NCBI RefSeq assembly: GCF_902498785.1
Contig: NZ_LR701491.1
Span: 1-42,568 of the forward strand
Direction of reading: 5' to 3'
From: Sphingomonas sp. EC-HK361
GTDB lineage: Bacteria; Pseudomonadota; Alphaproteobacteria; Sphingomonadales; Sphingomonadaceae
Length of the DNA: 42,568 bases
Shown here: positions 7,909 through 42,435 of the stretch, in pieces
How the letters are laid out: each line of letters starts with the position of its first letter
How positions within the stretch are numbered: position 1 is the first letter of the stretch
Notes under the pieces: model-generated
Database searches by the model: none
What the model was told of the DNA's origin: nothing
The model's input: only the letters and a program-made list of their open reading frames with translations
Translations under genes and position numbers: made by a program

Positions 7909-7912
<4 letters not shown>

Positions 7913-17083: not shown

Positions 17084-18079
17084 CTAACGCGGTTTGCCGA
17101 GCCCGATCGCGCGGAGGATCGGATCGATCCAGCGATCGCCGCGGCGCAGCGCGAAGCCGTTGGTATAGCCCCAGGCGCAGCCATCGATACCGATGCGCGC
17201 AAAGGCGTCATGCACCGCGCCGTAATAGCGGGCGCGCTGGTCGATCGCGATGGGATCGTGCGCGCCATATTCGCCCATGAAGATCGGGCGCCCGGTCCGC
17301 GTCGCATAGGCGCGGACCTTGGCGACGTCGCCGGCCAGCGCCGCGGCATCGCCCGGCATCGGATAGGTCCGTCCGACCGGTGGAGACGGGTTGACCCAGC
17401 TTGCGCCCTGATGGGTGAAGGCGAAGGGTTCGTAATAGTGGAAGGTCACGACGAGATTCCTGTCGTCCGGAAGCGGCAGCGTCGCTAGCGAGTCGACGTT
17501 GCTCCAGTTCTGCCCCCCGATCACCACCTTGCGCGTCGGGTTCGTGCGGCGCACCGCGGCAAGCGCCGGACCCAGGGTTACGAGCAGGTTCGCGTTGGTC
17601 AGCTTGTCGTGCGGCTCGTTCAGCAGCTCGAACCACAGCGCGTCGTCGCGGTTCGCGAAATGCGCTGCGATCTGTCGCCACAGACCGGCGAAGCGCTGTG
17701 TGTTGGCGGCCGGCTCCGTCATCAATGCATCGTAATTGTGCAGGTTCAGGATCACACCCAGACCCGCCGCCCGCGCCTTGCCGACGACATGATCGACCCG
17801 GGCCATGAACGCCGGATCAATCGCATAGGGCGGCTGCACGGCGGCATGGGCGGACCATTGGACCGGAATTCGGACGGTGCGGAATCCGGCGTCGGCGATG
17901 ATGCGGAAATCGGCGTCGGCGATGGGCCGCCCCCATGCGCCTTCGCGGGGAGCCTCAAGGTGGTTCGCCATATTCACGCAAGCGCCGATGGCGCGCGCTG
18001 CGTTCGCGGGCGGATTCGTGGCCGAAAGGAGAAGCGATGCGCAACCCAGCAATCCGAACCTCATCACAGCGTCGCGCAT
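17084..18079 (-). CDS. Exported GH5 glycoside hydrolase (endoglucanase/mannanase-like)
   Basis: Protein of 331 residues with a Sec signal (MRFGLLGCASLLLSATNPPANA); the LLGC could be mistaken for a lipobox, but hydrophobicity continues past it. Clan GH-A features: RTVRIPVQWS, NLHNYDA, acid/base E155 in ELLNEPHD, HYYEPFAFTHQ and nucleophile E270 in IFMGEYGAHD. This looks like the endoglucanase branch of GH5 rather than the subfamily 7 mannanase at 28166. It would attack beta-1,4-glucan or mixed glucomannan. It starts one base after the stop of the ROK kinase gene, so both belong to the TonB receptor 1 operon. It ends stop-to-stop with GH26. Confidence 0.9.
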   Translation of the reverse strand: MRDAVMRFGLLGCASLLLSATNPPANAARAIGACVNMANHLEAPREGAWGRPIADADFRIIADAGFRTVRIPVQWSAHAAVQPPYAIDPAFMARVDHVVGKARAAGLGVILNLHNYDALMTEPAANTQRFAGLWRQIAAHFANRDDALWFELLNEPHDKLTNANLLVTLGPALAAVRRTNPTRKVVIGGQNWSNVDSLATLPLPDDRNLVVTFHYYEPFAFTHQGASWVNPSPPVGRTYPMPGDAAALAGDVAKVRAYATRTGRPIFMGEYGAHDPIAIDQRARYYGAVHDAFARIGIDGCAWGYTNGFALRRGDRWIDPILRAIGLGKPR

Positions 18080-18080
18080 G

Positions 18081-19037
18081 TCAGTGTCCCGGTTCGACAG
18101 CGAGCGCCGCGCGGGCCAGCGCGATCGAGCCGAGCGGTCCGGCCTGCGCTCCGAGGGACGGCGGAACGATGTAGGGGCCGTTGGCGGGCAGCGACAGATA
18201 GCCGTTCAGGCTCGCGCGCAGCATAGGCTCGATGCGCGGCAGCAGATGGTCCTGCTTCATGAACACCCCGCCACCCACCGCGATACGCTGCGGCCCGGTC
18301 GTGCAGATCAGGCTGTGACACAGCTTCGCGACGGCATCGGCCACGCGCGTCCAGACCGGATGATCGGCAGCGATGTCGGAAACCGGTGTTTCTCCGAGAA
18401 CCGCCTCGATCGCCGGACCCGATGCGAGGCCCTCCACACAGTCACGATGGAAGCGGCAGGCGCTCGGTCCATCGTCGCCATCGAGCCGCGGCACCAGGAT
18501 GTGGCCTAGCTCGCTATGGCCCACACCGCGGGTGGGTTGGCCCCGGACAATCAGCCCAACGCCGACCCCGGTGCCCACGGTCACATAGGCAAAGTCGGAC
18601 AGGCCTTTTCCTGCACCCCAGGCCATCTCGGCGAGCGCCGCGCCATTGACGTCGGTATCGAACGCCATCGGCACGGGGTGGCGCGACGACAGTCGCCGCG
18701 CGACATCGGTCATGGTCCACCCGCCCTTGTTGGTCGCAAGGACGTAGCCGTAGTTGGCGGAGTCGGGATCCAGATCGACCGGTCCGAAGCTGCCGATACC
18801 GATCGCCGCGAACGGGTGGTCATGCGCCCATCGATCGAGAATCCCGTCGATCGCACCGAGCGTGGGCTCGGGCTGTTGGGTAGGAATGGTGCGTTGTTCG
18901 ACGATCGCCCCCGGGCCGTGCGCGAGCGTACAGACGCATTTCGTTCCGCCAAGCTCGATACCGGCAAACACCGGCATCCCCCGCCCCCCTGTTTCGGGGA
19001 GCGGCATCGGATCTCGTATTGGCTTCATGTCTGGCAT
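18081..19037 (-). CDS. ROK-family sugar kinase (fructokinase/mannokinase, GmuE-like)
   Basis: Cytoplasmic ATP-dependent sugar kinase of 318 residues. Visible: phosphate loop GIELGGTKC, catalytic D129 in FDTDVNGAALAE, TVGTGVGVGLIV, and a zinc site made of H179 (ELGHILV) and C194, H197, C200 (ACRFHRDCVEGLASG). This CxFHxxC form is that of Bacillus fructokinases, including GmuE of the glucomannan operon, rather than the CxCGxxGC form of NagK-type kinases. It probably phosphorylates mannose or fructose brought in by the MFS carrier. An in-frame ATG at 18977 (MPVFAGIELGG) preceded by a G-rich tract is an alternative start that would trim 20 residues. Operon: TonB receptor 1, this kinase, GH5. Confidence 0.92.
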   Translation of the reverse strand: MPDMKPIRDPMPLPETGGRGMPVFAGIELGGTKCVCTLAHGPGAIVEQRTIPTQQPEPTLGAIDGILDRWAHDHPFAAIGIGSFGPVDLDPDSANYGYVLATNKGGWTMTDVARRLSSRHPVPMAFDTDVNGAALAEMAWGAGKGLSDFAYVTVGTGVGVGLIVRGQPTRGVGHSELGHILVPRLDGDDGPSACRFHRDCVEGLASGPAIEAVLGETPVSDIAADHPVWTRVADAVAKLCHSLICTTGPQRIAVGGGVFMKQDHLLPRIEPMLRASLNGYLSLPANGPYIVPPSLGAQAGPLGSIALARAALAVEPGH

Positions 19038-19124: not shown

Positions 19125-22100
19125 TCAGAAGCTCATCCGCGCACTGATGGTGTAGGTGCGATCCGCCTTCGAATATTGGCGTGGTGATTCAAGTCCTTCG
19201 CCGTTGAGGCGGAAGACCGTTTTGGTCGTCGCATCGAGCAGATTCTGCACCTCGATCCCGATCTTGAAGCTCTGATTGACGGCGTAGAAGGCTGAACCGT
19301 CCAGCTGGCCGTAAGACGCTGCATAGACCGGCAGGAACGGGAAGCAGCAATCGCGGTTGGTCAGCAAATATTTCGACCGCCAGCTATAGGCCGCCCGCAG
19401 ATACAGCCCGTTGCGGTCATAGAAAAGCGACGCGTTGAAATTGTGTTTGGAAAGACCCGGAAGCTCGAGATTGTCGTAGAGGCCCTGCACGTCGAGCGGT
19501 GGCTGATAGCCATCGCCCTCCAGCGGCGTGGGGTCGGCAGACGCACGATAGTCGGGCGGGGCGATCTGGACCTTGCCCGCGTCGATATAGGTATAGGTCG
19601 CCTGCACGCCCAAACCGGCAAGCGCACCGGGCAGGAAATCATAGGTCTGCTGATAGCCGAACTCGAGGCCCTTGATCTTGGTCGTGCCCGGCGCGTTGGC
19701 GGGGCCGCTCAACTGGAGCGTGTAGGTGGAGCCGTTGTTCGATACGTCGCGGCTAAACCCGCTGTTCGCGAGGATCACGTTCTTGAGCGATTTGTAGAAC
19801 GCCGCGGCGGTGAACGAGCCCACTTTTGCGAAATACCATTCGGCGGTCAGGTCGAACTGGTCCGCGGTGATCGGTCGCAGGAACGGGTTGGACGATCGCG
19901 CCTCGAACGCCCCAGTCGAGCCATTGAAGCCGATCGACAGGAAGTTGCGCAGATCGCCGAAATTCGGCCGCGATATGGCGCGTGACGCGGCGAAGCGGAA
20001 CAGCAGCTTGTTGGTCGCATCGAAACGCAGGTTGAGCGCCGGCAGGAAATTGTCGAATTCCTGCCTGGCGGTTTGCGGCAATTGCGATCCGTCGGCGAAG
20101 GCCAGCACGGCATTGCGCTGCGCGTCGGTCACGCCGGGGCGGCATAGCGCGGGCAGCTGCGTTTGCGGCGGCGCGTTGCTGACGGGGCCGGGCGGGGGCG
20201 GCTGATTGGCCTGCGATTGCTGATCCGCACAGTAGCTCGCGAAATCCGGGAAGGTCGAGATGACCTGGGTGCGCGAAGGGAAGGTGATCGCCCCCACCGA
20301 ATCGTCGCGGGTATGGACGTAGCGCGCGCCGATATTGCCCGACAGGCGCCGGCCGCCGCCGAAATCGGTCGCGAAGTCCAGCCGGGCATAGCCGGCATAG
20401 GTCTTTTCCGAATTCTCGTAGATTTCGCCGGGCCGGAAATACCCGTCGATCAGGTCCGTGCCGCGATCCTCGATCGGGGTGTAGCTGAACTGCCCCGACG
20501 GATCCTTCGCGCGGTTGACGAGCAAGTCCATGAGGGCATCGTGGTTGCGCAGGATGCTCTCGTTGATGAACGGCGATGCCGGCGGCGCAGTCGTGCCGCC
20601 ACGAAAGAAATTGCCGTAGCTGTAGAGGCCGACGTCGTTCGGCGTCACCTCGTTGACGAAGCGCGGGCCCTGATCGGTCCATGTCGCGGACAGGCTGCCC
20701 CAATTGTTGTAGTCGTTGGTGCGCACCGTCTGCTTGCGGTCCGCATAGCGGCCGCCGACGCGAATCTTGCGGAAGAAGCCGTCGTCCGACAGATCATAGT
20801 CGGCATCCACGCGGAACGCCCATTCGTCGCCGTCGCTGATGTTCCGGTTGTTGTAGGCGTCGTTGTAGAAGATCGTGCTGTCGACGCCCGAGAAATAGCG
20901 CGCGGTGTCGAAGCCCGGCGTCGCAAACGAGATTTGCGGCACCTTGCCGGTCAGGTCGATGGTCGGATTGGCATAGGTCTGCAAGTCGACGATGTCGTCG
21001 ATCTGATCGGCCTCCGACTTCACATACTGCCCGTCGAACGTCAGGTGCAGCCGCTCGGTCGGCGTCCATTTCAGGTTGAGCGAAAAGTCCTGCGCCAGCG
21101 AGCGTGTCGCATTGTAGCGGTTGGTGAAGCGCACCCCGGTGCCGGTGCGCACCAGCTGCGGATAGGGGCAGTAGGTATTCGTGTACGGAAACCCCTGGTT
21201 CGGGATCACGCACGGCGTCGTGACATTATGCTGCTGGGTCGTGTTCGTCTCCTCCAGCGTGCCGCTGGTGAAGATGCCGTTCTTGTCGAACGTGAACTGG
21301 TTGGCAGGATTGTAGGCGAAGCCGCCCGGCGTGGTCATGCCGTTCGGGCTGAACTGGTTCGGCGCGAGCGTGCCGGCCGGAAAGGTATTCCCGATATCAT
21401 TGTAATAGACCGATGGCTCGGTCGTGCGCTCGACCCAGTTCTCCTTGCTCAGCGCGCGCAGATACTGGCCGGTGATGAGCAGCGATCGGTCGGCATTCTC
21501 ATATTGCAGCGCGCCGGAGAAGCTGGTCCGCAGCCGGTCGAATTCCTGCGAGCCGAAGCCGCCGCCCAGCGGCGTGTACACCGTGTCGAACCCCGCCGGC
21601 ACGTTGAACGCGTCGCAGGCGCGCACGGCATAGGGCGTGCCCTGGTTGAGGATGCGGCCTTCGTTCGGATTGTTGCCGTCGCACAGCTGCCCGTCATATT
21701 GCGAGCCCTGATAGTTGCCGTTGACCGCATAGCCGTCGACCCCGTCGTTCGGGGCGTTGAAGCGCGGCAGGAAGGACGACAGGAACACCCGGTCGGAGCG
21801 ATTATACTGGCGGTTGTAGCTGCCCGACGCGAGCACGCCGATCCGCCCGCCGCCCGGCAGGTCGAAGGTCTTGCTGGCCAGGCCGGCGAACCCCGGCGCC
21901 GACTTCTTCACGAAATCGCCGTAATTTACCGAAGTCGAGAGGTAATAGATGTCTTTCGTGCTGTCGAAGGGCTTGCGCGTGTTGATGCTGACCGTGCCGG
22001 AGATGCCGCCTTCGATCAGGTCGGATGTCAGGCCCTTGAAGACCTCGATGGAGCCGACGAGTTCGGTCGGCACGTCGCTGAAGCCGATCTCGCGCCCACC

Positions 22101-22556
22101 GCTGGCGGCAAAGGCGTCGCGGCCGTTGAACTCGCCGCGAACATAGCCAAGCCCGCGGATGACGACGCCGGACCCCTCGACCGAGAAATGCTGTGAGTCG
22201 TCAGGGGCGGCGAAGCGGGTGATCGCGACTCCGGGGATGCGCTGAAGCGCTTCGTTCACCGACCGGTCGGGCAGCGCGGAAATGTCCTCCGCGCTGATCG
22301 CGTCAACCACGGTATCCGCGTTGCGCTTGATCTCCTGCGCGTTCTGCAGGCTGGCGCGGATGCCGCGCACGATGATGTCGTCGCCCTCATACGCGGGCGC
22401 GTCATCCTGCGACGGCGTGGCCGCGGTCTGTGCCTCGGGTTCGGGGGTGTCCTGCGCAAATGCCGCTGGCGTCGCGCCTGCGAGCGCGATCGCGGATACG
22501 CCGCCGAAAAACCTGGAAAGCTGATTGCGCGATGATCGCGAACGCGAAAAATCCAT
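19125..22556 (-). CDS. TonB-dependent receptor 1 (TonB-Xanth-Caul type, carbohydrate importer)
   Basis: Outer-membrane active transporter of 1143 residues. Signal peptide of about 35 residues ending AAFAQ, a short proline/glutamate linker, then a plug with DDIIVRGIRASLQNAQEIKR, SALPDRSVNEALQRIPGV and IEVFKGLTSDLIEGGISGTV. The long 22-strand-type barrel ends in the canonical aromatic YTISARMSF. The plug start and length fit the large Xanthomonas/Caulobacter family found in polysaccharide loci. It heads the operon with the sugar kinase and GH5 (88 bp gap to the kinase). It diverges from the halogenase genes across a 194-bp region that holds operator candidate D. The substrate is probably a manno-oligosaccharide, by context. 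Confidence 0.95.
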   Translation of the reverse strand: MDFSRSRSSRNQLSRFFGGVSAIALAGATPAAFAQDTPEPEAQTAATPSQDDAPAYEGDDIIVRGIRASLQNAQEIKRNADTVVDAISAEDISALPDRSVNEALQRIPGVAITRFAAPDDSQHFSVEGSGVVIRGLGYVRGEFNGRDAFAASGGREIGFSDVPTELVGSIEVFKGLTSDLIEGGISGTVSINTRKPFDSTKDIYYLSTSVNYGDFVKKSAPGFAGLASKTFDLPGGGRIGVLASGSYNRQYNRSDRVFLSSFLPRFNAPNDGVDGYAVNGNYQGSQYDGQLCDGNNPNEGRILNQGTPYAVRACDAFNVPAGFDTVYTPLGGGFGSQEFDRLRTSFSGALQYENADRSLLITGQYLRALSKENWVERTTEPSVYYNDIGNTFPAGTLAPNQFSPNGMTTPGGFAYNPANQFTFDKNGIFTSGTLEETNTTQQHNVTTPCVIPNQGFPYTNTYCPYPQLVRTGTGVRFTNRYNATRSLAQDFSLNLKWTPTERLHLTFDGQYVKSEADQIDDIVDLQTYANPTIDLTGKVPQISFATPGFDTARYFSGVDSTIFYNDAYNNRNISDGDEWAFRVDADYDLSDDGFFRKIRVGGRYADRKQTVRTNDYNNWGSLSATWTDQGPRFVNEVTPNDVGLYSYGNFFRGGTTAPPASPFINESILRNHDALMDLLVNRAKDPSGQFSYTPIEDRGTDLIDGYFRPGEIYENSEKTYAGYARLDFATDFGGGRRLSGNIGARYVHTRDDSVGAITFPSRTQVISTFPDFASYCADQQSQANQPPPPGPVSNAPPQTQLPALCRPGVTDAQRNAVLAFADGSQLPQTARQEFDNFLPALNLRFDATNKLLFRFAASRAISRPNFGDLRNFLSIGFNGSTGAFEARSSNPFLRPITADQFDLTAEWYFAKVGSFTAAAFYKSLKNVILANSGFSRDVSNNGSTYTLQLSGPANAPGTTKIKGLEFGYQQTYDFLPGALAGLGVQATYTYIDAGKVQIAPPDYRASADPTPLEGDGYQPPLDVQGLYDNLELPGLSKHNFNASLFYDRNGLYLRAAYSWRSKYLLTNRDCCFPFLPVYAASYGQLDGSAFYAVNQSFKIGIEVQNLLDATTKTVFRLNGEGLESPRQYSKADRTYTISARMSF

Positions 22557-22750: not shown

Positions 22751-24241
22751 ATGGCGGACGCACGGCCGCGCACGCGCGTGGTCATTCTGGGCGGTGGCAC
22801 CGCGGGGTGGATGACTGCGGCAGCGCTGGCGAACGACCTTGCGCCGATCGCCGACATCCGTCTCGTCGAATCCGCCGACATCGGCATCGTTGGCGTGGGC
22901 GAAGCGACGCTGCCGCATATCCGGCAATTCGTGCAACATCTGGGCATCGACGAAGGCGCCTTCATGGCGGCGACCCATGCGACCTTCAAGCTGGGTATCG
23001 CGTTCGAAGGGTTCGGCGCGATCGGCGACCGGTATATTCATCCCTTCGGCACCTTCGGCCGCGATCTGGCCGGCGTGGCATTCCACCATTACTGGCTGCG
23101 GGCGGGCGGGCGAGTGCCGATCGGCCAGTGGTCGGTCGCGGTCGCCGCGGCGGAAGCCAACCGCTTCGCGCATCCAAATCCTGCCGACCCGGAGCTCGCC
23201 GGCAGCTATGGCTATGCTTATCAGTTCGACGCCACCCGCTTCGGCCCGTTCCTGCGCGACTACGCCGTCGCTCGCGGCGTCGCGCGGACCGAGGCGACCG
23301 TCCGATCGGTGGAACGCGATGGCACGACCGGGGACATCGCGGCCTTGCATCTGGATACCGGCGAGCGGATCGCCGGCGATCTCTTCGTCGACTGCTCCGG
23401 CTTTCGCAACCTGCTGCTCGGCGGCGAGCTGGACGAAGCATGGGAGGACTGGAGCGGCTGGCTGCCGTGCGATAGCGCCGCCGCGATGCCGTGCGCGTCG
23501 CCCGAGGGCGCGATCGAGCCCTACACGCGCGCCGTTGCCATGCCGGCGGGATGGCGATGGCGGATTCCGCTCCGGCACCGGGTGGGCAACGGCTATGTCT
23601 TTGCCAGCGACCATGTGTCGGAGGACGAAGCCTGCGAAGCGCTGATCGCGGCGGTCGAGGGCGAGCCGCTCACCGAGCCGCGCGTCCTGCGCTTTCGTGC
23701 CGGGCGGCGGCGGCGCAGCTGGGTGCGCAACGTGGTCGGTGTCGGCCTCGCCAGCGGCTTTCTCGAACCGCTGGAATCGACGTCGATCTATCTCGTCCAG
23801 GCCGCGATCACGCGGTTGATCGAGCTGTTTCCGGCAGGCGGCATCGCGGACGCCGACCGTAACGCGTTCAATCGTCTCGTCGACATGGAATATGATCGCA
23901 TCCGCGACTTCCTGATCCTGCATTATCATGCGACCCGGCGCGACGATTCGACCTTCTGGGATCACGTGCGGACGATGGCGGTGCCCGACAGCCTTGCCGA
24001 AAAGCTGGCCTTGTGGCGCGCGACGGGGCGCGTCGCGCGCTATGGTGAGGGACTGTTTCTGGAACCGAGTTGGGTCGCGGTGTTGATCGGACAAGGCATT
24101 TTGCCCGATGCCTATGATCCGCGCGCCGCCATCCCCGACGATGCCGCGATGGATCGCGCGATGCAGGATTTGCGCGCGCGGGTTGGCGCGACCGCCATCG
24201 CCATGCCCGAGCACCGGGCGAGCCTGGCCGCGATGCGATGA
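22751..24241 (+). CDS. Tryptophan-halogenase-family flavin-dependent enzyme (first copy)
   Basis: Protein of 496 residues of the PrnA-like flavin-dependent halogenase family. All hallmarks are present: FAD-binding GGGTAGW near residue 14, GVGEATLP at about 48-55, the catalytic lysine K80 (ATFKLGIAF), the halogenase motif W268-R-W270-R-I-P, and E342 in FLEPLESTS. Family enzymes oxidise halide with FADH2 and oxygen to halogenate an aromatic substrate. Members sitting beside TonB receptors in xanthomonads and sphingomonads have unknown natural substrates. A partner flavin reductase is not seen nearby. It ends with a 4-bp ATGA overlap into the next gene. Presumed cytoplasmic, as no signal peptide is visible. 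Confidence 0.9.
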   Translation: MADARPRTRVVILGGGTAGWMTAAALANDLAPIADIRLVESADIGIVGVGEATLPHIRQFVQHLGIDEGAFMAATHATFKLGIAFEGFGAIGDRYIHPFGTFGRDLAGVAFHHYWLRAGGRVPIGQWSVAVAAAEANRFAHPNPADPELAGSYGYAYQFDATRFGPFLRDYAVARGVARTEATVRSVERDGTTGDIAALHLDTGERIAGDLFVDCSGFRNLLLGGELDEAWEDWSGWLPCDSAAAMPCASPEGAIEPYTRAVAMPAGWRWRIPLRHRVGNGYVFASDHVSEDEACEALIAAVEGEPLTEPRVLRFRAGRRRRSWVRNVVGVGLASGFLEPLESTSIYLVQAAITRLIELFPAGGIADADRNAFNRLVDMEYDRIRDFLILHYHATRRDDSTFWDHVRTMAVPDSLAEKLALWRATGRVARYGEGLFLEPSWVAVLIGQGILPDAYDPRAAIPDDAAMDRAMQDLRARVGATAIAMPEHRASLAAMR

Positions 24242-25503
24242 GCCGCGCGGTCACGGCCCGTATGCCGTTGTCGCGCGTCCTCGTCATCGGCGGGGGCCAG
24301 GTCGCGCTGCTCGCAGCGATCGCGCTGCGCCGCGCGCTGCCGCACACCATCGTCGCACTTGCAGACGCACCCGTGGCGCCGCACGCCTTGGCGGACCTCG
24401 CCCATACCACGCTGCCGTCGCTCGGCCAGTTTCATGCAAGGATGGGCATGGATGAGGCCACCCTGATCGGTCGCGCGGCCGCGACACACCGGCTTGCGAT
24501 CCGATATCTTGGCTGGCCCAGTGAAGGCGCCGAGTGGCTGCTGGCCTATGGCGCGGTGTCCGAGGGCGGAGTTTCGATCGGCGCGGCGCTTGCAGCGGAA
24601 GAATATTTTGCCGAACCCGGCGACGCCTTGGACGATCCGCTGTCCGATCTCGATCCCGCGCTGCGCTTCGATCCTGCGCTGCATCTGCGCGGTTTGCGGT
24701 CGCTGGCGCGCCATGTCGGAGTCGCCGCCGGCGATGCGGACGATGGGGCCGATCTGATCATCGACACGCGCGCCGCGCAAGCGGGCGGGTCGAACTGGAT
24801 CGACTGGAGCGATCGCTTGCCCGGGCGCAGCATCGCGGCGGAAACATGCGCGCCGGCGCTTTCCGTGATCGACACCGTCACCGCATCCGAGGCGGGCTAT
24901 CGGATCGCGTCGCCTGGCAGGGCTGCGACGCGCACGCTTACGATCGGATACGCACAGCCGACGGTGGACGACGTCCCCCTGTCGCAGGGGCGCATCGCGG
25001 CGGGCTGGGTCGATCGCACCGTCAAGGTCGGCGACGCGGCGGCGGTGTTCGAGCCGCTCGGCTGGTGCAACCTTCATCTGGCGATCTGCCAGATCGAGCT
25101 GCTGCTCGAGCTGCTGCCCGGACGCGATATCGTGCCGCTGGAGCGCGCGGAATATAACCGGCGCTGGGCACTGCTGACCGACCGGGTCGCCGATTTCGTG
25201 GCGGCGCATCATCTCGGTCGCCCCGGCATCGTGCGTTCGCCGGGTCTGGACCACACCGTTGCCGAGTTCGTCCGGCGCGGGCGCATCGCGTATGTCGAGG
25301 AAGACAGCATCGGTCCGGACCTGTGGCGCCAATTGCTGGGCCGCGTCTGTCCGCAGCATAGCCCGGCGCCGATCGCGATCGCGCGGGACGACAAGGTGCA
25401 AGCCAGCCTGACCGCCGCGCATCGAGCCCGTGCCGCACGCGCGCTGGCGACCGCCTCACCCTATCCGGCGTGGCTCGCCGATCGCTTGAAGGATTGTCGA
25501 TGA
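24238..25503 (+). CDS. Degenerate tryptophan-halogenase paralogue lacking catalytic residues
   Basis: Protein of 421 residues, about 75 shorter than its neighbours, alignable with them along the length: VLVIGGGQVALL for the FAD loop, HTTLPSLGQFHARMGMDEA for EATLP...LGIDE, THRLAIRYLGW for TFKLGIAF, and FEPLGWCNLHL for LEPLESTSI. The catalytic lysine is R85, the key glutamate is G275, the WxWxIP motif is gone, the third glycine of the FAD loop is replaced, and the GxGEAT loop is missing. The reading frame is intact and coupled at both ends by ATGA overlaps, which argues against simple decay. It may be a non-catalytic partner or scaffold of the flanking halogenases. Function unknown. Confidence 0.82.
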   Translation: MSRAVTARMPLSRVLVIGGGQVALLAAIALRRALPHTIVALADAPVAPHALADLAHTTLPSLGQFHARMGMDEATLIGRAAATHRLAIRYLGWPSEGAEWLLAYGAVSEGGVSIGAALAAEEYFAEPGDALDDPLSDLDPALRFDPALHLRGLRSLARHVGVAAGDADDGADLIIDTRAAQAGGSNWIDWSDRLPGRSIAAETCAPALSVIDTVTASEAGYRIASPGRAATRTLTIGYAQPTVDDVPLSQGRIAAGWVDRTVKVGDAAAVFEPLGWCNLHLAICQIELLLELLPGRDIVPLERAEYNRRWALLTDRVADFVAAHHLGRPGIVRSPGLDHTVAEFVRRGRIAYVEEDSIGPDLWRQLLGRVCPQHSPAPIAIARDDKVQASLTAAHRARAARALATASPYPAWLADRLKDCR

Positions 25504-27011
25504 CCCCGATCGAATCCGTCGTGATCGTGGGCGGCGGGACCGCGGGCTGGATGGCCGCCGCCGCTGCGGCGCGGTTCCTGGACGATGGCCATCGACGAAT
25601 CACGCTCGTCGAATCGGATGCGATCGGGACCGTCGGCGTCGGCGAGGCGACGATCCCGCCGATCCTCGGCTTCAACCGGCTGCTCGGCATCGACGAGGCG
25701 GAGTTCGTCCGCGAGACCGGCGCGACTTTCAAGCTTGGGATAGAGTTCGTCGACTGGGGCGGACGTGGCGAACGCTATTTCCATCCGTTCGGCGAGCACG
25801 GCCGAGATTTCCAGGGCGTGGCCTTTCATCAGTATTGGCTGAAGCACCGGCATGCCGCCCGGATCGGTGTGCTGTCGGACTATGCGATGGCGGGGGTGGC
25901 CGCCGCGGCGGGCCGCTTCGCCCCGCCCGCGACGGACCCGCGTGCCCCGCTGTCGCAGCTGGCCTACGCCTATCATTTCGATGCCGGGCTCTATGCCGCC
26001 TTCCTGCGCCGCCGCGCCGAGGCGCAGGGCGTCGTGCGGATCGAGGGCAGGATCTCAGGCGTGGAGACCGATGCGCAGACGGGGTTCGTGGGCGCGGTCG
26101 TGCTCGAGGACGGGCGCCGCGTGGCGGGCGATCTGTTCATCGACTGCTCGGGATTTCGCAGCCTGCTGCTCGGCGAGACGCTGGGCGTGGGCTACCGCGA
26201 CTGGTCGCACTGGCTGCCGTGCGACCGCGCGGTCGCGGTGCCGGCCGCGCGCGCCGCGCCGCTGCCGCCCTTCACCCGCGCGACGGCGCAGGCGGCGGGC
26301 TGGCAGTGGCGGATTCCGCTCCAGCATCGCACCGGCAACGGACTCGTCTACGCGAGCGCGCATCTGAGCGACGACGCGGCCGAAGATGCGCTGGTCGCGG
26401 GTGTCGATGCGCCGCTCGCTGCACCGCGCCGCCTGTCCTTTACTGCCGGCGTGCGCGAACGGCTGTGGGATCGCAACGTCGTCGCGCTCGGCTTGGCGGG
26501 TGGCTTCATCGAACCGCTCGAATCGACCAGCATCCATCTGATCCAGACCGGCATCTCGAAACTGTTCTGGCTGTTTCCCGACAAAGGTTTCAGCGCGGTA
26601 GAGCGCGACACCTACAACCGGCTGATGACCGAGCAGTTCGAATATGTCCGCGACTTCATCGTGCTGCATTACAAGGCGACGCGGCGCGACGACACGCCCT
26701 TCTGGCGCTACGTCCGCAACATGGCGATCCCCGACAGCCTCGCGCACAAGATCGCGCTCTTCCGGGAAAAGGGGCGGGTGATGCGCTTCGACCATGATCT
26801 GTTCGCGGTGCCCAGCTGGGTCGCGGTCATGCTGGGGCAGGGGATCGCGCCGCAGGGCTATGATCCGCTGGTCGACGCGATGGACGATGCGCGGATTTGC
26901 GCCGCGATGGCCGAGATGCGGGCGGGCTATGCCGCGCAGGCGCTGCGGATGCCGCTCCACGCCGACTATGTCGCGGCGCATTGTCCGATGCCGGGGGTCA
27001 GCGGCGGGTGA
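25500..27011 (+). CDS. Tryptophan-halogenase-family flavin-dependent enzyme (third gene)
   Basis: Protein of 503 residues with a full set of halogenase hallmarks: GGGTAGWMAAA at residue 11, GVGEATIPP, catalytic lysine K78 (ATFKLGIEF), WQWRIP (W268, W270) and E341 in FIEPLESTS. ATG 25500 overlaps the preceding stop (ATGA) and follows an AAGGA ribosome site; a longer reading from 25470 lies inside the previous gene. It shares the family's overall architecture with the gene at 22751 but differs in the substrate region around residues 85-160, so the two may act on different sites or substrates. Its last 14 bp overlap the end of the convergent cupin gene. Confidence 0.9.
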   Translation: MTPIESVVIVGGGTAGWMAAAAAARFLDDGHRRITLVESDAIGTVGVGEATIPPILGFNRLLGIDEAEFVRETGATFKLGIEFVDWGGRGERYFHPFGEHGRDFQGVAFHQYWLKHRHAARIGVLSDYAMAGVAAAAGRFAPPATDPRAPLSQLAYAYHFDAGLYAAFLRRRAEAQGVVRIEGRISGVETDAQTGFVGAVVLEDGRRVAGDLFIDCSGFRSLLLGETLGVGYRDWSHWLPCDRAVAVPAARAAPLPPFTRATAQAAGWQWRIPLQHRTGNGLVYASAHLSDDAAEDALVAGVDAPLAAPRRLSFTAGVRERLWDRNVVALGLAGGFIEPLESTSIHLIQTGISKLFWLFPDKGFSAVERDTYNRLMTEQFEYVRDFIVLHYKATRRDDTPFWRYVRNMAIPDSLAHKIALFREKGRVMRFDHDLFAVPSWVAVMLGQGIAPQGYDPLVDAMDDARICAAMAEMRAGYAAQALRMPLHADYVAAHCPMPGVSGG

Positions 27012-28008
27012 GCGCCTCGACGAGATAGTCGACGATGCGCTGGGTGCGGGTCGGCGACGGCGCATCCATAACGCCGCGCGCATGGTCGGGCAGATGATCG
27101 GCGCGGGTCGCGGCGTCTTTCGAGAACACATAATGGTCGAACCACACCCGCCACGCCTCGCGTTCGGTGTGCGGCAGGTCGCGCACCGCCTGCATCGCAT
27201 GGACCAGCGCGGCGAAGGGCGATCCGCTGGGTGGCTGGCCATACCAGTAGTTCAGCAGGATGTTGAAAGGGCCCTCGGCGACGACATTGTGCCACCACAA
27301 GGTCGGTATGTAGATCGCGTCGCCCGGCTCCAGTTCGGCGCTCAGCGCGGCACTCATTGCCTTGGCGAAGCGGGGGTAGCGATCCAGATCGGGCGCGCGC
27401 AGGTCGACCATGCTCACTGGCTGGCCGGCGATCGTCATGTCCAGCGGTCCGACATAGAGATTGGGGGTCTGATCGGGCGGGAACAGCGTGAAGCGGCGGC
27501 GCCCCGCCGCCACGACCGCAATATTCTCCGACGCGTCATAGTGCGTCGAGATGTGCGAGGCGTTGCCGATCCAGATGCGCGGCGTCGCGCCGGGGGTGGC
27601 GAGCGGCATCGGATTGGCTTCGGCGAGACCCGGCAAATGCTCGGGCGTGGAAGCCGACCCGGCGTAGAGCGACGGCGCATCGTCGCGGTCGAGCCACAGG
27701 ATCAGCTGGCGGATCAGGACCGTCATCGGCACCTGCGCGGTCTCGAAATTGAAGCCGCGCATGTCAGGCGTGTAGAAATAGCGGCCCCGTTCGGCGGGGG
27801 CGGCGCGCATCGCGCGTGCGGTGCTGCCGCGATCGAACCGCGCGAGATATGCCGCCGCCGCCTCGGGCCCGGCGCGACCTGCCGCGACCAAAGGCCAGTC
27901 CGCGGCGAGTCCGCGAAGCACCAGCGGGCCGGGATCGTCGGCCACCGCCTGCGCAAAGGCATCGGCGCCTTCGTAGCGGATTTCGCGGATCGGATTTGCT
28001 GGGATCAT
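26998..28008 (-). CDS. Cupin_8/JmjC-like Fe(II)/2-oxoglutarate oxygenase family protein
   Basis: Protein of 336 residues. ATG 28008 follows GGAGAG at good spacing and starts with MIPANPIREI. A cupin_8 (FIH-1/JmjC-like) core carries the iron-binding facial triad H156-x-D158 (SHISTHYDASEN) and distal H240 (YIPTLWWHNV); RRRFTLFPPDQTPNLYVGP follows the triad as in family members. Such enzymes usually hydroxylate amino acid side chains of proteins or small molecules. Genes of this family often lie with tryptophan-halogenase genes beside TonB receptors. Its end overlaps the third halogenase gene by 14 bp, tail to tail. Substrate unknown; soluble, no signal peptide. Confidence 0.88.
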   Translation of the reverse strand: MIPANPIREIRYEGADAFAQAVADDPGPLVLRGLAADWPLVAAGRAGPEAAAAYLARFDRGSTARAMRAAPAERGRYFYTPDMRGFNFETAQVPMTVLIRQLILWLDRDDAPSLYAGSASTPEHLPGLAEANPMPLATPGATPRIWIGNASHISTHYDASENIAVVAAGRRRFTLFPPDQTPNLYVGPLDMTIAGQPVSMVDLRAPDLDRYPRFAKAMSAALSAELEPGDAIYIPTLWWHNVVAEGPFNILLNYWYGQPPSGSPFAALVHAMQAVRDLPHTEREAWRVWFDHYVFSKDAATRADHLPDHARGVMDAPSPTRTQRIVDYLVEALTRR

Positions 28009-28165: not shown

Positions 28166-29560
28166 ATGACGACCCGCCGCGAGATACTGGCTGCCGGCAC
28201 CTCCCTGCTCGGCCTGACGGCGCTACCTGCGATCGCCGGTTCAAGGCGATCACGCACATCGTCCGATTTCGTCACCGTTGCGGGGCATGGCTTTCGCCTG
28301 CACGGCAAGCCCTATCGCTATGTCGGCGCCAACATGTGGTACGCCGCCTATCTCGGTGCCGACACCGCCTATGGGGACCGTGCGCGACTGGGGCGCGAAC
28401 TCGACCGACTGGTCGCGCTCGGCATCGATAATGTTCGGGTGCTGGGCGCATCGGAGGACTCGCCGCTTATCGGTGCGATCTCGCCGGCGTTTCGCGGGAA
28501 GACGGACGTCTATAATCCGGACTTGCTGGCCGGGCTGGACTGGTTCCTGGCGGAATTGGGCAAGCGCGGGATGCGCGCCGTCATCTATCTCAACAATTTC
28601 TGGGAATGGTCGGGGGGCATGATGACCTACCTGTCCTGGGTCAATGGCGGGAAATATATCGACGCCCACGATCCGGCGCATCCCTGGCCGGAATTCGCGG
28701 ACTATACCGCGGGCTTCTACACTCATCCGCGCGCGGTGGCGCTGTATCACGCCTATGTCTGCGCGCTCGTCGGCCGCACCAACGGTGTGACGGGACGGCG
28801 CTATGCGGACGATCCGGCGATCATGGCGTGGCAGCTCGCCAATGAACCGCGCCCCGGCGAAAGCCCGGCAACGACCGCCCGCATCCTTCCGGCCTATCAG
28901 GCCTGGATCCGCAAGACCGCCAGGCTCATCCGGTCGATCGACGCCAATCATCTGGTGTCGAGCGGGGCCGAGGGCACGATCGGGTGCGCGAACAGCATGG
29001 CCTGCGTCGCCGATGCCGCAGCCCCGGTCGACTATATGACGATCCACATCTGGCCGCAGAATTTCGGCTGGATCGATCCGGCCGATCTCGCCGGCACCCG
29101 CGCGGTGGGCGAGGCGAAGACATTGGCCTATATTCGCGATCACCGCGCGCTGGCGGTGAAGCTGGGCAAGCCCCTGGTCATCGAGGAGTTCGGCTATCCG
29201 CGCGATGCCGGCTATGCGCCGGGAACGCCGACCATCCACCGCGATGGCTATTACCGGCTCATCATGGAAAGCGTGGCGGCCGATGCGCGCGCGGGCGGCC
29301 CGCTCGCGGGGCTGAATTTCTGGGCGTGGAACGGCGAAGGGCGTGCCCAGCATCCCGATCACCGGTTTCGGACCGGTGACCGAAGCTATCTCGGCGATCC
29401 GCCGCACGAACCGCAGGGATGGTACGGCGTCTTCGATCAGGACATGACGACAAAGCGGCTCATCCGCCGCTACGCGACCGCCTTCGCACGATCGGCTGAG
29501 GCTGCCCTGGGACATGTCAATCCTGCAATAGCGTGGCCAATTTGTCGTCTTGCATTATAA
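28166..29560 (+). CDS. Tat-exported GH5 endo-beta-mannanase (subfamily 7-like)
   Basis: Protein of 464 residues. A twin-arginine-type leader (TTRREILAAGTSLLGLTALPA) precedes the catalytic domain. GH5_7 marks: FRLHGKPYRYVGANMWYAAY, VRVLGASED, YLNNFWEWSGGM, acid/base E227 in WQLANEPRPGE, HIWPQNFGW, and nucleophile E341 (E340 is adjacent) in LVIEEFGYPRD. The NNFWEWSGG block and the length are those of mannanases such as fungal Man5 and bacterial homologues. It would cut mannan or glucomannan in the periplasm or outside, alongside GH26. The start at 28166 has weak GGAGA upstream. The gene stands alone between the cupin gene and TonB receptor 2. Confidence 0.92.
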   Translation: MTTRREILAAGTSLLGLTALPAIAGSRRSRTSSDFVTVAGHGFRLHGKPYRYVGANMWYAAYLGADTAYGDRARLGRELDRLVALGIDNVRVLGASEDSPLIGAISPAFRGKTDVYNPDLLAGLDWFLAELGKRGMRAVIYLNNFWEWSGGMMTYLSWVNGGKYIDAHDPAHPWPEFADYTAGFYTHPRAVALYHAYVCALVGRTNGVTGRRYADDPAIMAWQLANEPRPGESPATTARILPAYQAWIRKTARLIRSIDANHLVSSGAEGTIGCANSMACVADAAAPVDYMTIHIWPQNFGWIDPADLAGTRAVGEAKTLAYIRDHRALAVKLGKPLVIEEFGYPRDAGYAPGTPTIHRDGYYRLIMESVAADARAGGPLAGLNFWAWNGEGRAQHPDHRFRTGDRSYLGDPPHEPQGWYGVFDQDMTTKRLIRRYATAFARSAEAALGHVNPAIAWPICRLAL

Positions 29561-29591: not shown

Positions 29592-29807
29592 ATGACTGCG
29601 TGCTGCGGAATGAGCGATACGAAGGCTGACGTTCGAGCAGCTCGGGAGGATGTGGCGACCCAGGCATGACGGCGGGGTTGCGGATCGGCGGCGCAGGATT
29701 GCGCCCGTCCCGGCAGCGACACTTCGGCTTTCTACAGGTCACCCCCATGCGGGCGGCCAAAAGGACAATGCGCCTTACAAGTGGGGCGGTGCCGAAGGAG
29801 CAGGTTG
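29592..29807 (+). other. Leader region of TonB receptor 2, no gene recognised
   Basis: A 216-bp stretch between the palindromic operator and the TonB receptor start. No open frame with family resemblance and no convincing structured RNA is visible to me. If transcription starts soon after the -35-like TTGACG, the 5' untranslated leader would be near 200 bases, long for this window. The ribosome site AAGGAG lies at its 3' end. Confidence 0.4.
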
Positions 29808-32800
29808 ATGAAGGGTTTTGATCGCACCGCCGCAAGCCGGGTTCGCCGGGGGGCAGTTCTCGCTGCGGCCTCGCTCGTCGCGATCGCGCTGTCCCAGCCG
29901 GCCTGGGCGCAGGCGACCGCGAGCGATCCCGCGCAGACATCGGGGGCGGCGCAGGACAATTCCACCGGTCAACCGAGCGCGGACTCTGCGGCGGACGACA
30001 TCGTCGTGGTCGGCGTGCGCGGCGCGCAACGCGCGGCGGTTCAGATCAAGCGCCAATCGGCCGAGATCGTCGACAGCATCGTCGCCGAGGATATCGGCAA
30101 GCTCCCCGACGCGACCATTGCCGATTCGCTCCAGCGTGTGCCCGGCATCCAGATCGGGCGCTCGGCAGGCGAGGGATCGAGCGTCAATGTGCGCGGGCTG
30201 GGGCAGGTGCTGGTGACGCTCAACGGCGAGCAGTTCCTCGGCGGCCAGAGCATCGACAACGCGCAGCCCAACTTCACCGATATTCCCCCGTCGCTGTTCG
30301 CGGGCGTTGATGTTTACAAGTCGCCGAGCGCGCGCCAGGTCGAGGGCGGGGTCAGCGGCACGATCGACCTGAAGACGCGGCGCCCGTTCGACCTGAAGGA
30401 GGGGCTGACGGCGACGGGGTCGGCGGAAACGTCGTACGGGTCGCGGGTCAAGAAGTTCAACCAGCTCTATTCCGGCCTGCTCGGCTATCACAACGGGCGG
30501 TTCGGGCTGCTGGTGGCGGGGTCCTATTCGAAGGCCAGGCTCGCCAATATCGGCATCGACACCGGCAACAGCTGGCTGATCTCGACCGACGCGCTATCGG
30601 GTACCGACCTGCGCGGCGACGGCGACATCACCGACAGCAACAAGTTCGCCGATAAGGATTACGTCTATCAGCCTGCGGTCGTCAGCAACTCCAACCGCCA
30701 GACCGAGCGCGAGCGCTATGGCCTCAACGCGTCGGCGCAGTTCGCGATCACCGATCAGCTGACGCTCACCGGTTATGTCGCGTATACCAAGCTCAACGAC
30801 GATCTGCGCGCGGTCAACATCCAGCTGAACAGCGGCTATGCGCCGCGCCCGCTGCTGCCGGGATCGCAGGTGGACGAGAACGGCGTCGTCACGGTCGGCA
30901 ATTTCGCGCTGCCGGGCTTCACCGCCAACAGCCTGGCGACCAACAGCCGCTCGCGCACCTATAATACCAATCTCGAGCTCACCTACGAGAATGACGGCGT
31001 GTTCAAGGGCACGCTGCGCTGGGTGCACGGCGATGCGCGGCGCACGTCGGATTCATCGCAGGCGGATTCGAAGCCCGTCACCGGCCCGACGATCACGCGC
31101 GGCACGACAGCGGCCTGCCGCGTCAACCCCGCACCCGCGGCGTGCACGGGTTTCCAGAACCCCAACGGCTTTCCGGCCGTGAACGTCGGCATCGACTACA
31201 CCACCAAATATCCGACGCTCAACTTCGGCACCGATGTCAGCAATCCGGCCAACTGGATCCTGTTCTCGACCTGGGGCTATGGCGACGAACGCACCGCCAA
31301 GACCGACGCGTTTCGTGCCGATGGCACCTACACGGTCGGCGGGTTCCTGAAGACGATCGACGCCGGCATCCGCTACAACACCCGCGACGTCTCGGTATCG
31401 GAATACAAGCTGCTGGCGCCGGTGACGGTCGACGGTCTCGGCACGCTGAACGGCCCGGGCGATCTGTATTACTTCAAGGATGCCGGCATCGGTCATACCG
31501 GCAACGCGGCGATCGAAGGCCGCTCGGTGCTGCCGATCTACACCTTCGCGCAGCTGGGCGACCGCGTGCGCAACTACAACAACTTCATCTTCGGCGGCGT
31601 GCCGAGCGGCGGCATTCCCGCGATCGATCCGAACGCGATGTCGGACCCGCTCGCGTTTCAGAACAGCCTGTATCCCGGCAATGCGGCCTATAACGATCCG
31701 ACCCGCAGCTTCCGCGTGACCGAGAAGACGGGCACTGCCTACCTCCAGGCGAATTTCGGTACCGAGAATGGCGGGCTGTTCGGCATGGACCTGTCGGGCA
31801 ATGTCGGCGTGCGCTACACGACGACGCGCCGCAGCGTTTATGCGAACACGACCGATCCGAACCGCTTCATCGGCACGGGCGGCAATTACAACGGCGTGTT
31901 CATCAACCTCGGCACCAACGTCACGCGCAAGACGATCGACCGGTGGTTGCCCTCGCTCAATCTGACGCTCGACATCGACGATCGTCAGAAGCTGCGCTTT
32001 GCCGCGGCGAAGGTCGTGGGCGAGCTCAACCTGTTCGATCTGGGCGCCGGCCGGGTGCTCTATTACGGCGCGAACAACGGCCGCTACCCCAACCTGCCGT
32101 CCGATTTGCAGGTGTTCCTGCAGGGCAACTCGGGCAACCCCGATCTCGAACCGTATCAGTCGAACAACTACAACGCCTCGTACGAATTCTATTTCGGGCG
32201 GGGCGGATTGTTCAGCGCCGCGGTGTTCCTGTTCGACGTGAAGTCGTTCCCGCAATCGATCAACACCATCCAGCCGATCGCCGATGCCGACGGCGTGGTG
32301 CGCGCCGGCGGCGTCATCTCGACGACCGGCAACGGAACCGGCGGCAAGATCAAGGGAATCGAGGTCGGCTATCAGCAGCAGTTCGATTTCCTGCCGGGCT
32401 TCCTGAGCGGGTTCGGCGCGAACGCCAATTTCACGCTGTCCGACAGCGAAAGTTCGAACAGGGATCTGTTCGGAAAGACGCTGCCCGTTCCGGACAATTC
32501 GAAATATCAGTACAATCTCATCGGTTTCTACCAGAAGGGCCCGGTCCAGGCGCGTGTTGCGTATAACTGGCGCTCGAAGCGCTTTGCCGGGCTGCAGTCG
32601 GTCAACGGCGTGGCCGATGGCGACGTGCTCGCCATCTATTCGAAGCCGGTCGGCTATCTCGATGCCTCGGCCAGCTACGATATCACCCCCAACTTCACCG
32701 TCTTCGCACAGGGGACCAACCTGACGAGCGCGAGCGACCAGCAATATGCCCAGTTCGAGAATCTCTATTACCAGCAGAACATCTTCGAACGGCGCCTGAC

Positions 32801-32825
32801 CTTCGGTATCCGTATCCGGAACTGA
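29808..32825 (+). CDS. TonB-dependent receptor 2 (TonB-Xanth-Caul type)
   Basis: Outer-membrane transporter of 1005 residues. ATG 29808 follows AAGGAG with 7-bp spacing, then a signal peptide ending QPAWAQ. The plug has DDIVVVGVRGAQRAAVQIKR, GKLPDATIADSLQRVPGIQI, VNVRGLGQVLVTLNGEQFLGG and YKSPSARQVEGGVSGTIDL, all typical of the Xanthomonas/Caulobacter family. The protein ends RRLTFGIRIRN, lacking the usual terminal aromatic residue needed for efficient Bam recognition. It is followed by a clear terminator and then the GH31 gene. The likely role is import of a second type of oligosaccharide; which one is unknown. Confidence 0.94.
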   Translation: MKGFDRTAASRVRRGAVLAAASLVAIALSQPAWAQATASDPAQTSGAAQDNSTGQPSADSAADDIVVVGVRGAQRAAVQIKRQSAEIVDSIVAEDIGKLPDATIADSLQRVPGIQIGRSAGEGSSVNVRGLGQVLVTLNGEQFLGGQSIDNAQPNFTDIPPSLFAGVDVYKSPSARQVEGGVSGTIDLKTRRPFDLKEGLTATGSAETSYGSRVKKFNQLYSGLLGYHNGRFGLLVAGSYSKARLANIGIDTGNSWLISTDALSGTDLRGDGDITDSNKFADKDYVYQPAVVSNSNRQTERERYGLNASAQFAITDQLTLTGYVAYTKLNDDLRAVNIQLNSGYAPRPLLPGSQVDENGVVTVGNFALPGFTANSLATNSRSRTYNTNLELTYENDGVFKGTLRWVHGDARRTSDSSQADSKPVTGPTITRGTTAACRVNPAPAACTGFQNPNGFPAVNVGIDYTTKYPTLNFGTDVSNPANWILFSTWGYGDERTAKTDAFRADGTYTVGGFLKTIDAGIRYNTRDVSVSEYKLLAPVTVDGLGTLNGPGDLYYFKDAGIGHTGNAAIEGRSVLPIYTFAQLGDRVRNYNNFIFGGVPSGGIPAIDPNAMSDPLAFQNSLYPGNAAYNDPTRSFRVTEKTGTAYLQANFGTENGGLFGMDLSGNVGVRYTTTRRSVYANTTDPNRFIGTGGNYNGVFINLGTNVTRKTIDRWLPSLNLTLDIDDRQKLRFAAAKVVGELNLFDLGAGRVLYYGANNGRYPNLPSDLQVFLQGNSGNPDLEPYQSNNYNASYEFYFGRGGLFSAAVFLFDVKSFPQSINTIQPIADADGVVRAGGVISTTGNGTGGKIKGIEVGYQQQFDFLPGFLSGFGANANFTLSDSESSNRDLFGKTLPVPDNSKYQYNLIGFYQKGPVQARVAYNWRSKRFAGLQSVNGVADGDVLAIYSKPVGYLDASASYDITPNFTVFAQGTNLTSASDQQYAQFENLYYQQNIFERRLTFGIRIRN

Positions 32826-32914: not shown

Positions 32915-32942
32915 CGGCGCGGCCGTGACGAAGGGTGAAGCG

Positions 32943-36357: not shown

Positions 36358-36564
36358 AGCCACTCGAAATCGCGGCTAATGGCGATCCCGACCATTAGGC
36401 ACCCATGGAGCCGTCGCTTGATCGGGAGTGGTGCACCACTCTCGTGAAAATCCATCTCATAGAAGACAAAAGCGGGCACCCGCCTGCGGGGTTGCCGCGT
36501 TTCACGCTTGACTTGTTGGAAGATGTTGCTCAGATGTTCTCGCCGCAACAATGGACGGGGCGGC
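36358..36564. other. Intergenic region between recombinase relic and toxin gene
   Basis: About 200 bp with no recognisable gene, repeat or RNA. Composition is less GC-rich than the surrounding catabolic genes, in keeping with acquired DNA. Confidence 0.4.
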
Positions 36565-40662: not shown

Positions 40663-40757
40663 GATGAACTCCGAGAATCTGGATGATCCGCCTTGCGGCG
40701 TAATGCAGGCGACACAGCGGTCGGTCCTGCCGCCCCGCTGCATCGCCAATGATCAGA

Positions 40758-41265: not shown

Positions 41266-41838
41266 TCAGTCGAGCGGTGGTCGTGCAGGATCGATGACGA
41301 GCAGGAGTCTTTCCTTACCCGTACCTGCGATCGGGGGCGAGCGGTGGACGATGGGATTGTCCGGTGCCCAATCACGCCCTTTGAAGAGGCCGACCGCTCC
41401 AGTCGCCAATCGGCGCGTCTTGGCAGCAGCGGCATCACACCATTCGGTACCCTGTCCGATATAGGTCGTGATCAGGCGTGCCGTTGTATAATCGGCGTGG
41501 AATTTCCAGCAGGCGTTGGTCGTCACGCGCTCGAGCCTAACCTCCACCTCATCGGTCGCCATGATATCGGCGAAACGCGCGGCGAGAAACGCGATATCGA
41601 GACGCAAGGCTTCGGCAAACGGCAGATCGGTCAGATCCGATGCGGCAAGCGCCGCGTCAATTGTCGTCGGATCGCCACGCAGGCGAACCTCGGTGAATCC
41701 GCCAAGATTATGCTGCGTTGCTCGAAAAGGCGGGGGCCGATTCCAGATCGCGATGTTGATGGCTTCCTGCAAAATCGAACGCAGGACGACCGGATCGTCG
41801 TGCTCGACCGCGTGAGACGCAGAGAGGACCGTCGCCAT
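41266..41838 (-). CDS. DUF1826 domain-containing protein
   Basis: Soluble protein of 190 residues. Its start ATG overlaps the stop of the COG0523 gene by one base (TGATG) and follows GGGAGG. Conserved-looking core: ERVTTNACWKFHADYTTARL, LITTYIGQGTEWCD, GRDWAPDNPIVHRSPP. DUF1826 genes are commonly found directly beside COG0523 zinc GTPases and are regarded as part of zinc-limitation responses, with unknown biochemistry. The WKFHxD element and later histidine could bind metal. Second gene of the metal operon. Confidence 0.82.
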   Translation of the reverse strand: MATVLSASHAVEHDDPVVLRSILQEAINIAIWNRPPPFRATQHNLGGFTEVRLRGDPTTIDAALAASDLTDLPFAEALRLDIAFLAARFADIMATDEVEVRLERVTTNACWKFHADYTTARLITTYIGQGTEWCDAAAAKTRRLATGAVGLFKGRDWAPDNPIVHRSPPIAGTGKERLLLVIDPARPPLD

Positions 41839-42389: not shown

Positions 42390-42435
42390 TGTCCGCCGTC
42401 AGCGCCAATGGCACAGATTTGAGGTTGTGATGTAA

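Follow-up and report, generated by a model that had tools for sequence, protein, structure and literature searches.

A halogenase cassette lies in the middle of a 42,568-nucleotide stretch of DNA from Sphingomonas sp. EC-HK361 (contig NZ_LR701491.1, positions 1 to 42,568; the whole stretch is called the window here). It contains three consecutive, overlapping genes of family PF04820 on the plus strand: hal1, a middle gene, and hal3 (coordinates in Table 1). The sequence ATGA forms the overlap at both junctions, hal1/middle gene and middle gene/hal3. Against PF04820 (Pfam cut-off 21 bits) the middle gene scores 103 bits; the scores of its two neighbours are listed in Table 1. Both hal1 and hal3 carry GGGTAGW, the catalytic lysine in TFKLGIxF, WxWxIP, and the glutamate of EPLES. 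None of these motifs is intact in the middle gene, which reads GGGQVAL, THRLAIRY, YRIASP, and EPLGWC. A Cupin_8 gene on the minus strand meets the triad tail to tail (hal3 ends at 27011 and the Cupin_8 gene at 26998). Its start is likely the methionine at 28008, in agreement with the coordinate given in the initial annotation; the open reading frame (ORF) itself is open to 28308. The initial annotation, made from the DNA letters alone, had described three overlapping halogenase-family genes, two of them with the full catalytic set, tail to tail with a Cupin_8 gene, and the Pfam scores, motifs, overlaps, and gene ends agree with this description.

The closest solved structures to hal3 by sequence are those of the BrvH/Xcc4156 subgroup (the PDB search was made with hal3 only). 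Its matches to free-tryptophan halogenases are weaker (PrnA, E = 7e-79; RebH, about 2e-71). In the Cupin_8 protein, HYD and WWH align with FIH, where we take their counterparts to be iron ligands, and the HxD...H iron-ligand pattern is present. Halogenation by hal1 and hal3 and 2-oxoglutarate (2OG)-dependent hydroxylation by the Cupin_8 protein are predicted activities. On its other side the triad faces a divergent TonB receptor gene (TBDT-A) across a gap of 194 bp that contains no complete ORF of at least 20 aa. For a precursor of the type used for ribosomally synthesized and post-translationally modified peptides, the survey covered this gap, with the same negative result, and the surroundings of the Cupin_8 start, where short ORFs are present.

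Judged by its residues, the middle gene is a pseudo-halogenase rather than an active halogenase. Compared across relatives, it is a conserved pseudoenzyme with a fixed position and a near-single origin, which the initial annotation had overlooked. Position 2 of the cluster is degenerate in 39 of 44 clusters, and the remaining positions are intact except for one gene. Fifty degenerate genes were compared, a set that excludes genes with a gap at the lysine column and from which fragments shorter than 330 aa were dropped. Lysine is lost in 43 of them and glutamate in 41, and WxWxIP is intact in none. The ratio of nonsynonymous to synonymous substitution rates (dN/dS) is 0.14-0.41 across 11 pairs of relatives of the degenerate gene, the window's copy being in none of these pairs. 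The middle gene keeps the halogenase fold in a high-confidence prediction. A recently decaying pseudogene is rejected on the near-single origin, the dN/dS in relatives, and the predicted fold. A genome scan with the middle protein as the sole query found no relative.

In dead copies, including position-2 genes, GDAA often replaces the GLxSGF stretch of active enzymes. GDAA resembles the GD motif of flavin hydroxylases, so that some dead copies may still bind flavin adenine dinucleotide (FAD). On a plasmid of Sphingomonas parapaucimobilis (L001, 14834-16578), the annotation splits the third halogenase into two pieces, and the gene looks broken; L025 has an intact relative. These two pieces were left out of the identity table. 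L102, L111, L113, L122, and L132 repeat places already included and were dropped where stated. L027 also has a sphingomonad-type cassette with a TonB receptor; its record is titled Arthrobacter sp. TPD3018, probably through misidentification.

Genes for BrvH-type halogenases are common in the genomes of sphingomonads and caulobacters examined, and a TonB receptor is often close by. In a census of all PF04820 genes in five genomes, at least 33 of 43 halogenase places are within 3 kb of a TonB-Xanth-Caul receptor (TIGR01782), where about 2 are expected (binomial p = 3e-34; the expectation is a simple coverage calculation). When the distance is widened to 4 kb, the count is still at least 33 and coverage predicts 2.2. 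An in-house receptor profile used instead of TIGR01782 links 34 of the 43. Receptor numbers are lower bounds, as at most 49 first-pass candidates of the TIGR01782 search (E 1e-60) were scored in four of the five genomes; all PF04820 candidates were scored, here and in the new genomes described below. Seen from the receptor side, 34 of 90 TIGR01782 receptors among the matches listed have a linked halogenase. The halogenase is directly adjacent (<600 bp) at 32 of 35 linked census receptors, 27 of these neighbours being co-directional and 5 not. Census genes of the WxWxIP type are in receptor-linked loci in 39 of 42 cases, and those of the WxWxIG type in 10 of 16. The latter form a second type of halogenase, marked by WxWxIG and FKQG, with six lone copies (L098, L110, L120, L129, L130, and L131). 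Six of ten long ORFs near unlinked halogenases have no Pfam match, and several are probably spurious overlapping frames.

The linkage is also found on plasmids, for which 14 of 63 listed matches were sampled. At 13 annotated loci, the halogenase adjoins a TonB receptor directly or across one or two oxygenase/SapC-type genes. The fourteenth is unannotated, and a receptor is still found beside the halogenase. L014 has an additional halogenase, distant from the receptor.

The partner receptor in the window is TBDT-A. It belongs to a clade of 45 receptors (support 0.999), in 44 of which a halogenase lies no more than 2.5 kb away. Since halogenases had led to most of these loci, a receptor-first test was made on new genomes, with a profile of the clade alignment and at most 25-26 candidates scored per genome. 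Among 28 new genomes of the first family, there are at least 8 clade receptors in 8 genomes, and all 8 have a halogenase at 255-449 bp (measured between match edges). Among 29 new genomes of the second family, there are at least 5 in 3 genomes, and each again has a halogenase, at 118-204 bp in four cases and at 2.0 kb in the fifth. With both sets pooled (57 genomes), 12 of 13 receptors among the matches listed are within 450 bp of a halogenase. In a by-eye comparison of contig coordinates, none of the 13 places coincides with an earlier locus. A low-scoring PF04820 member is in or facing the cluster at 7 of the 13, which, judged by score, fits a degenerate copy. A scan of the class Gammaproteobacteria with the receptor profile at E 1e-200 gave no match, but it also missed L132 of G005, a known clade receptor, and this null is therefore uninformative. 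The initial annotation had proposed a survey of gene order relative to TonB receptors; the census and the new genomes show that placement is not random, and chance co-residence is disfavored. The annotation had named two receptors; the clade of TBDT-A travels with these cassettes, and TBDT-B is outside it and has no halogenase directly beside it.

The orientation of cassette and receptor varies. In the 50 degenerate-halogenase loci, the cassette is divergent from the receptor in 26, downstream and co-directional in 14, and otherwise arranged in 2. In the remaining 8, some of them at contig ends, the 1-kb chain does not reach a receptor. Linkage thus survives a change of orientation, which argues for selection on the linkage. 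Another recurrent partner, overlooked initially, is a 2OG-oxygenase-type or SapC gene around the halogenase-linked receptors. A Cupin_8 gene occurs in 22 of the 50 degenerate-halogenase stretches. At a distance of up to 5 kb, genes for Cupin_8, SapC, DUF6445, or 2OG-FeII_Oxy_5 accompany 18 of the 35 census receptors linked to a halogenase and 0 of 35 controls (Fisher 4e-7). Note that the oxygenase/SapC profiles were seeded from halogenase-linked loci and may favor linked receptors. Control loci were taken in two rounds, a first set of 40 loci (12 with a same-family receptor above 200 bits) and a second set of 33, which spans most of another 36 places; the 35 control receptors belong to the second set. 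A module of TonB receptor, SapC (PF07277), Cupin_8, and halogenase recurs, sometimes with halogenases on both sides (L013:8159-9899, L103, L117, L124, L099, and L109). A DUF6445 gene is chained with receptor and halogenase in L007:9294-9989, L010:9180-9896, and L096:6163-6846 and looks like a further cassette member.

The glycan genes around the cassettes differ from locus to locus. Among the 50 triad loci, glycoside hydrolase (GH) family GH9 is found in 11; GH31, GH10, GH3, and a LacI regulator in 7 each; and GH43 and GH5 in 5 each. Two neighbour families without a Pfam match occur in 6 and 4 of the 50 (representatives L027:4351-5763 and L022:1285-3081, both on the minus strand). Single halogenases adjoin receptors amid GH68, GH32/amylosucrase, and alpha-amylase genes; sucrose/fructan-type loci are among these. 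Since the glycan genes vary in this way, sucrose type included, the glycan is unlikely to be the shared substrate. As far as gene content tells, the common denominator of the cassettes is the receptor, not the glycan. A mannan-specific role is rejected since relatives sit in xylan-, cellulose-, and sucrose-type loci, with GH9, GH10, GH43, GH31, GH3, and sucrose/fructan-type genes near the receptors, and the link to mannan drawn initially from the window does not extend to a general rule.

Taken by gene order and motifs, one clade of glycan TonB receptors has kept at its side two intact BrvH-type halogenases that enclose a dead one, often together with a JmjC-type oxygenase. Conservation of this arrangement in many relatives points to a chemical step tied to the receptor. 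Our leading reading, a tentative one, is a receptor-dedicated oxidative-modification cassette that acts on a polypeptide, with the receptor precursor as the likeliest target. Both intact halogenases would use reduced FAD (FADH2), O2, and halide in the cytoplasm, and the dead copy would assist as substrate adaptor or as a subunit without catalysis of its own. Hydroxylation of the same target or a linked one would fall to the Cupin_8 enzyme. Aromatic side chains of the target would be modified before export, and receptor function would thereby be tuned regardless of the glycan carried. Two lines from the literature bear on this choice. The function of the receptor CciT specifically requires the neighbouring cytoplasmic dioxygenase CciO, which three other tested receptors do not need (PMC12004947). 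Flavin halogenases act on peptides and, in one case, on an intact protein (PMC10858898, PMC12518702). A polypeptide target, the receptor first, is favored on these grounds, with a small molecule close behind. A more specific version is doubtful: glycan TonB receptors of Alpha- and Gammaproteobacteria would be halogenated, and hydroxylated, in the cytoplasm by a complex of two enzymes and a pseudoenzyme before export, at candidate sites such as W619 and W626 of TBDT-A.

Several points weigh against the leading reading. We infer receptor halogenation from gene neighbourhood, and the five census genomes were chosen for carrying hal1 relatives. For 10 of the 43 halogenase places, the matches listed include no TIGR01782 receptor at a distance of 4 kb or less. 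A low-scoring halogenase of the degenerate kind is not seen near 6 of the 13 new-genome receptors. L094, a receptor that is not among the controls, is accompanied by SapC and Cupin_8 genes but by no halogenase. The CciO authors offer three models, which put the substrate in a small molecule and not in the receptor (PMC12004947).

Another point against comes from the residues of the receptors. We compared 100 linked with 59 unlinked receptors, the latter defined by the 1-kb chain (control loci supply 47 of them; of the remaining 12, 4 lie 1.1-2.0 kb from a halogenase). The linkage state changes 19 times on the receptor tree vs 48 times when shuffled, and linkage therefore partly follows ancestry. 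In a clade-weighted test, no aromatic position separates linked from unlinked receptors, and the leading positions are non-aromatic. W619 is present in 45/45 receptors of the clade, 21/60 other linked, and 2/54 unlinked receptors, and W626 in 43/45, 24/60, and 5/54, respectively. In 19 matched pairs, W619 scores 4-0 and W626 3-0, and non-aromatic columns reach 7-0. The enrichment of these two tryptophans may reflect ancestry and is a lead, not a result. Tryptophans per receptor number 17.2 in the triad clade (mean length 1107 residues), 12.4 in other linked receptors (989), and 11.2 in unlinked ones (986). The initial annotation had suggested modification of a protein, for example the receptor. 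With the linkage found here, receptor-linked modification stays the best reading, but the residue test shows no clear modified position.

The small-molecule alternative, in which the halogenases and the oxygenase make or modify an aromatic metabolite (a signal, defence compound, or ligand) moved with the receptor's help, is a real possibility. Small aromatics are the usual substrates of characterized flavin halogenases. BrvH brominates indole slowly, preferring bromide (PMC5945002). On the side of the polypeptide reading, BrvH leaves free tryptophan unhalogenated, its K83A mutant is dead, and its active site could admit larger substrates (PMC5945002). The neighbours in our loci also count against a metabolite. 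The recurrent ones with an identifiable family comprise glycosidases, a LacI regulator, a sugar transporter, and a xylose-isomerase-like protein, although the two recurrent families without a Pfam match leave room for a scaffold-making gene. Sucrose-, xylan-, cellulose-, and mannan-type receptors would also need one common aromatic ligand, and the link to the receptor is mostly that of nearest neighbours. The same variety of glycans makes aromatic decorations of the glycan that is imported (e.g., feruloyl or lignin-linked groups) an improbable substrate of the enzymes. Plant cell-wall hydrolases in the triad loci (GH9, GH10, and GH43) fit such a role, but halogenases are also near GH68, GH32, amylosucrase, and alpha-amylase genes, where aromatic decoration is unexpected. 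We know of no catabolic pathway in which halogenation is a step.

The chemistry itself may be questioned. The intact enzymes could be flavin monooxygenases or NADH/flavin sensors that gate receptor expression, with the dead copy as a regulatory subunit. No product is known, and the GDAA-like motif is frequent in the dead copy in place of the GLxSGF of active enzymes. We consider this unlikely, since the halogenase lysine and glutamate are kept in hal1 and hal3 and intact in 230 of 280 genes compared, and BrvH, with the same motifs, does halogenate (PMC5945002). Least probable is that the cassette is a passenger, linked to the receptor only because mobile carbohydrate islands contain both. Carbohydrate genes abound in the loci, and plasmids carry some of the copies, but adjacency is direct in both orientations, holds for 13 of 13 receptors in the new genomes, and is accompanied by purifying selection on the dead gene.

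In the window, the cassette is part of a larger locus (Table 1). The initial annotation had placed it amid two TonB receptors and beta-mannan glycosidases, and both are found: TBDT-A and TBDT-B flank it, with GH26, Man5A-like, GH5, and GH2 enzymes nearby. Together with GH3, the ROK kinase, and a sugar transporter ORF of the major facilitator superfamily (MFS), the predicted functions fit the use of beta-mannan or glucomannan. The combination of TonB receptor, glycosidases, transporter, and sugar kinase is that of a proteobacterial carbohydrate-uptake locus. At the edge of the mannan locus (581-4956, minus strand) are an AcrB-type resistance-nodulation-division efflux pump and an HlyD-type membrane-fusion gene. 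A GDSL esterase ORF, whose start is probably near 8650, overlaps the MFS transporter ORF in a different frame (7909-9971, minus strand). Near a third TonB receptor (38656-40749) are a 388-aa ORF without a Pfam match (36508-37674, plus strand) and a DUF1826 protein (41266-42564, minus strand).

Table 1. Genes of the halogenase cassette and the surrounding locus in the window
Feature	Position	Strand	Evidence
hal1, flavin-dependent halogenase predicted by motifs	22751..24241	+	PF04820 587 bits; all catalytic motifs intact
Pseudo-halogenase (middle gene)	24238..25503	+	Complete predicted fold; catalytic Lys, Glu, WxWxIP lost
hal3, flavin-dependent halogenase predicted by motifs	25500..27011	+	PF04820 642 bits; BrvH 6frl E 6e-158
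Cupin_8/JmjC-type candidate 2OG oxygenase	26998..28008	-	PF13621 212 bits; FIH-like HxD + distal His
TBDT-A, TonB-Xanth-Caul (TIGR01782) receptor, divergent partner of halogenase triad	19125..22556	-	610 bits vs cut-off 310
TBDT-B, second TIGR01782 receptor, outside triad clade	29781..32825	+	647 bits vs cut-off 310
Man5A-like GH5 exo-beta-1,4-mannosidase	28166..29560	+	1uuq E 1.1e-112
ROK sugar kinase	18081..19037	-	PF00480 172 bits
GH5 endoglucanase-like enzyme	17084..18079	-	PF00150; 7vt5 E 3e-79
ORF with GH26 domain (mannanase family), true start probably after 15955	15202..17082	+	PF02156 164 bits
GH3 glycosidase	13517..15955	+	PF00933 259 bits
GH2 enzyme, mannosidase/glucosaminidase-type Ig domains (approximate ends)	9971..13300	-	Pfam
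GH31 enzyme	32925..35840	+	PF01055 306 bits

With the receptor as fixed partner, the dead copy conserved, and oxygenases nearby, the missing natural substrate of BrvH-type enzymes becomes a testable question. A modified receptor would mean that nutrient uptake is under a new form of post-translational control; a halogenated one would, to our knowledge, also be the first case of physiological halogenation of a protein in membrane transport of bacteria. A metabolite would supply the missing substrate for an entire enzyme subgroup that is of interest in biocatalysis. By titles and abstract openings among the matches listed in the open-access literature, no description of the cassette or of a conserved pseudo-halogenase was found; the subscription literature may hold an earlier remark on halogenases beside TonB receptors.

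PrnA, RebH, and PyrH belong to the same family as hal1 and hal3 and share the catalytic lysine, glutamate, and WxWxIP chemistry. They are more distant, however, and their genes are in natural-product clusters, not among receptors and glycosidases. Closer relatives are known from solved structures. For BrvH of Brevundimonas BAL3 (PDB 6frl), two halogenase genes are reported without a dead third copy, and the main text does not mention TonB (PMC5945002), whereas here a triad and a receptor are found. Other solved relatives of hal3 are Xcc4156 (PDB 6y1w), the natural role of which is not described in the text available (PMC7336383), and the Pseudoalteromonas L11 halogenase (PDB 9luq). SrpI, MibH, and ChlH resemble the proposed system as flavin halogenases that use peptide-bound tryptophan (PMC10858898, PMC12518702), but their substrates are precursor peptides in biosynthetic clusters, and the genes of the present cassette have no evident precursor gene between them. 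CciT/CciO, Fiu/YbiX, and PiuA/PiuC share with the cassette a TonB receptor linked to a neighbouring oxygenase gene (PMC12004943, PMC12004947). They are iron receptors with a different 2OG oxygenase, and no halogenase is mentioned in the available text of these papers; the comparison with the cassette is one of analogy.

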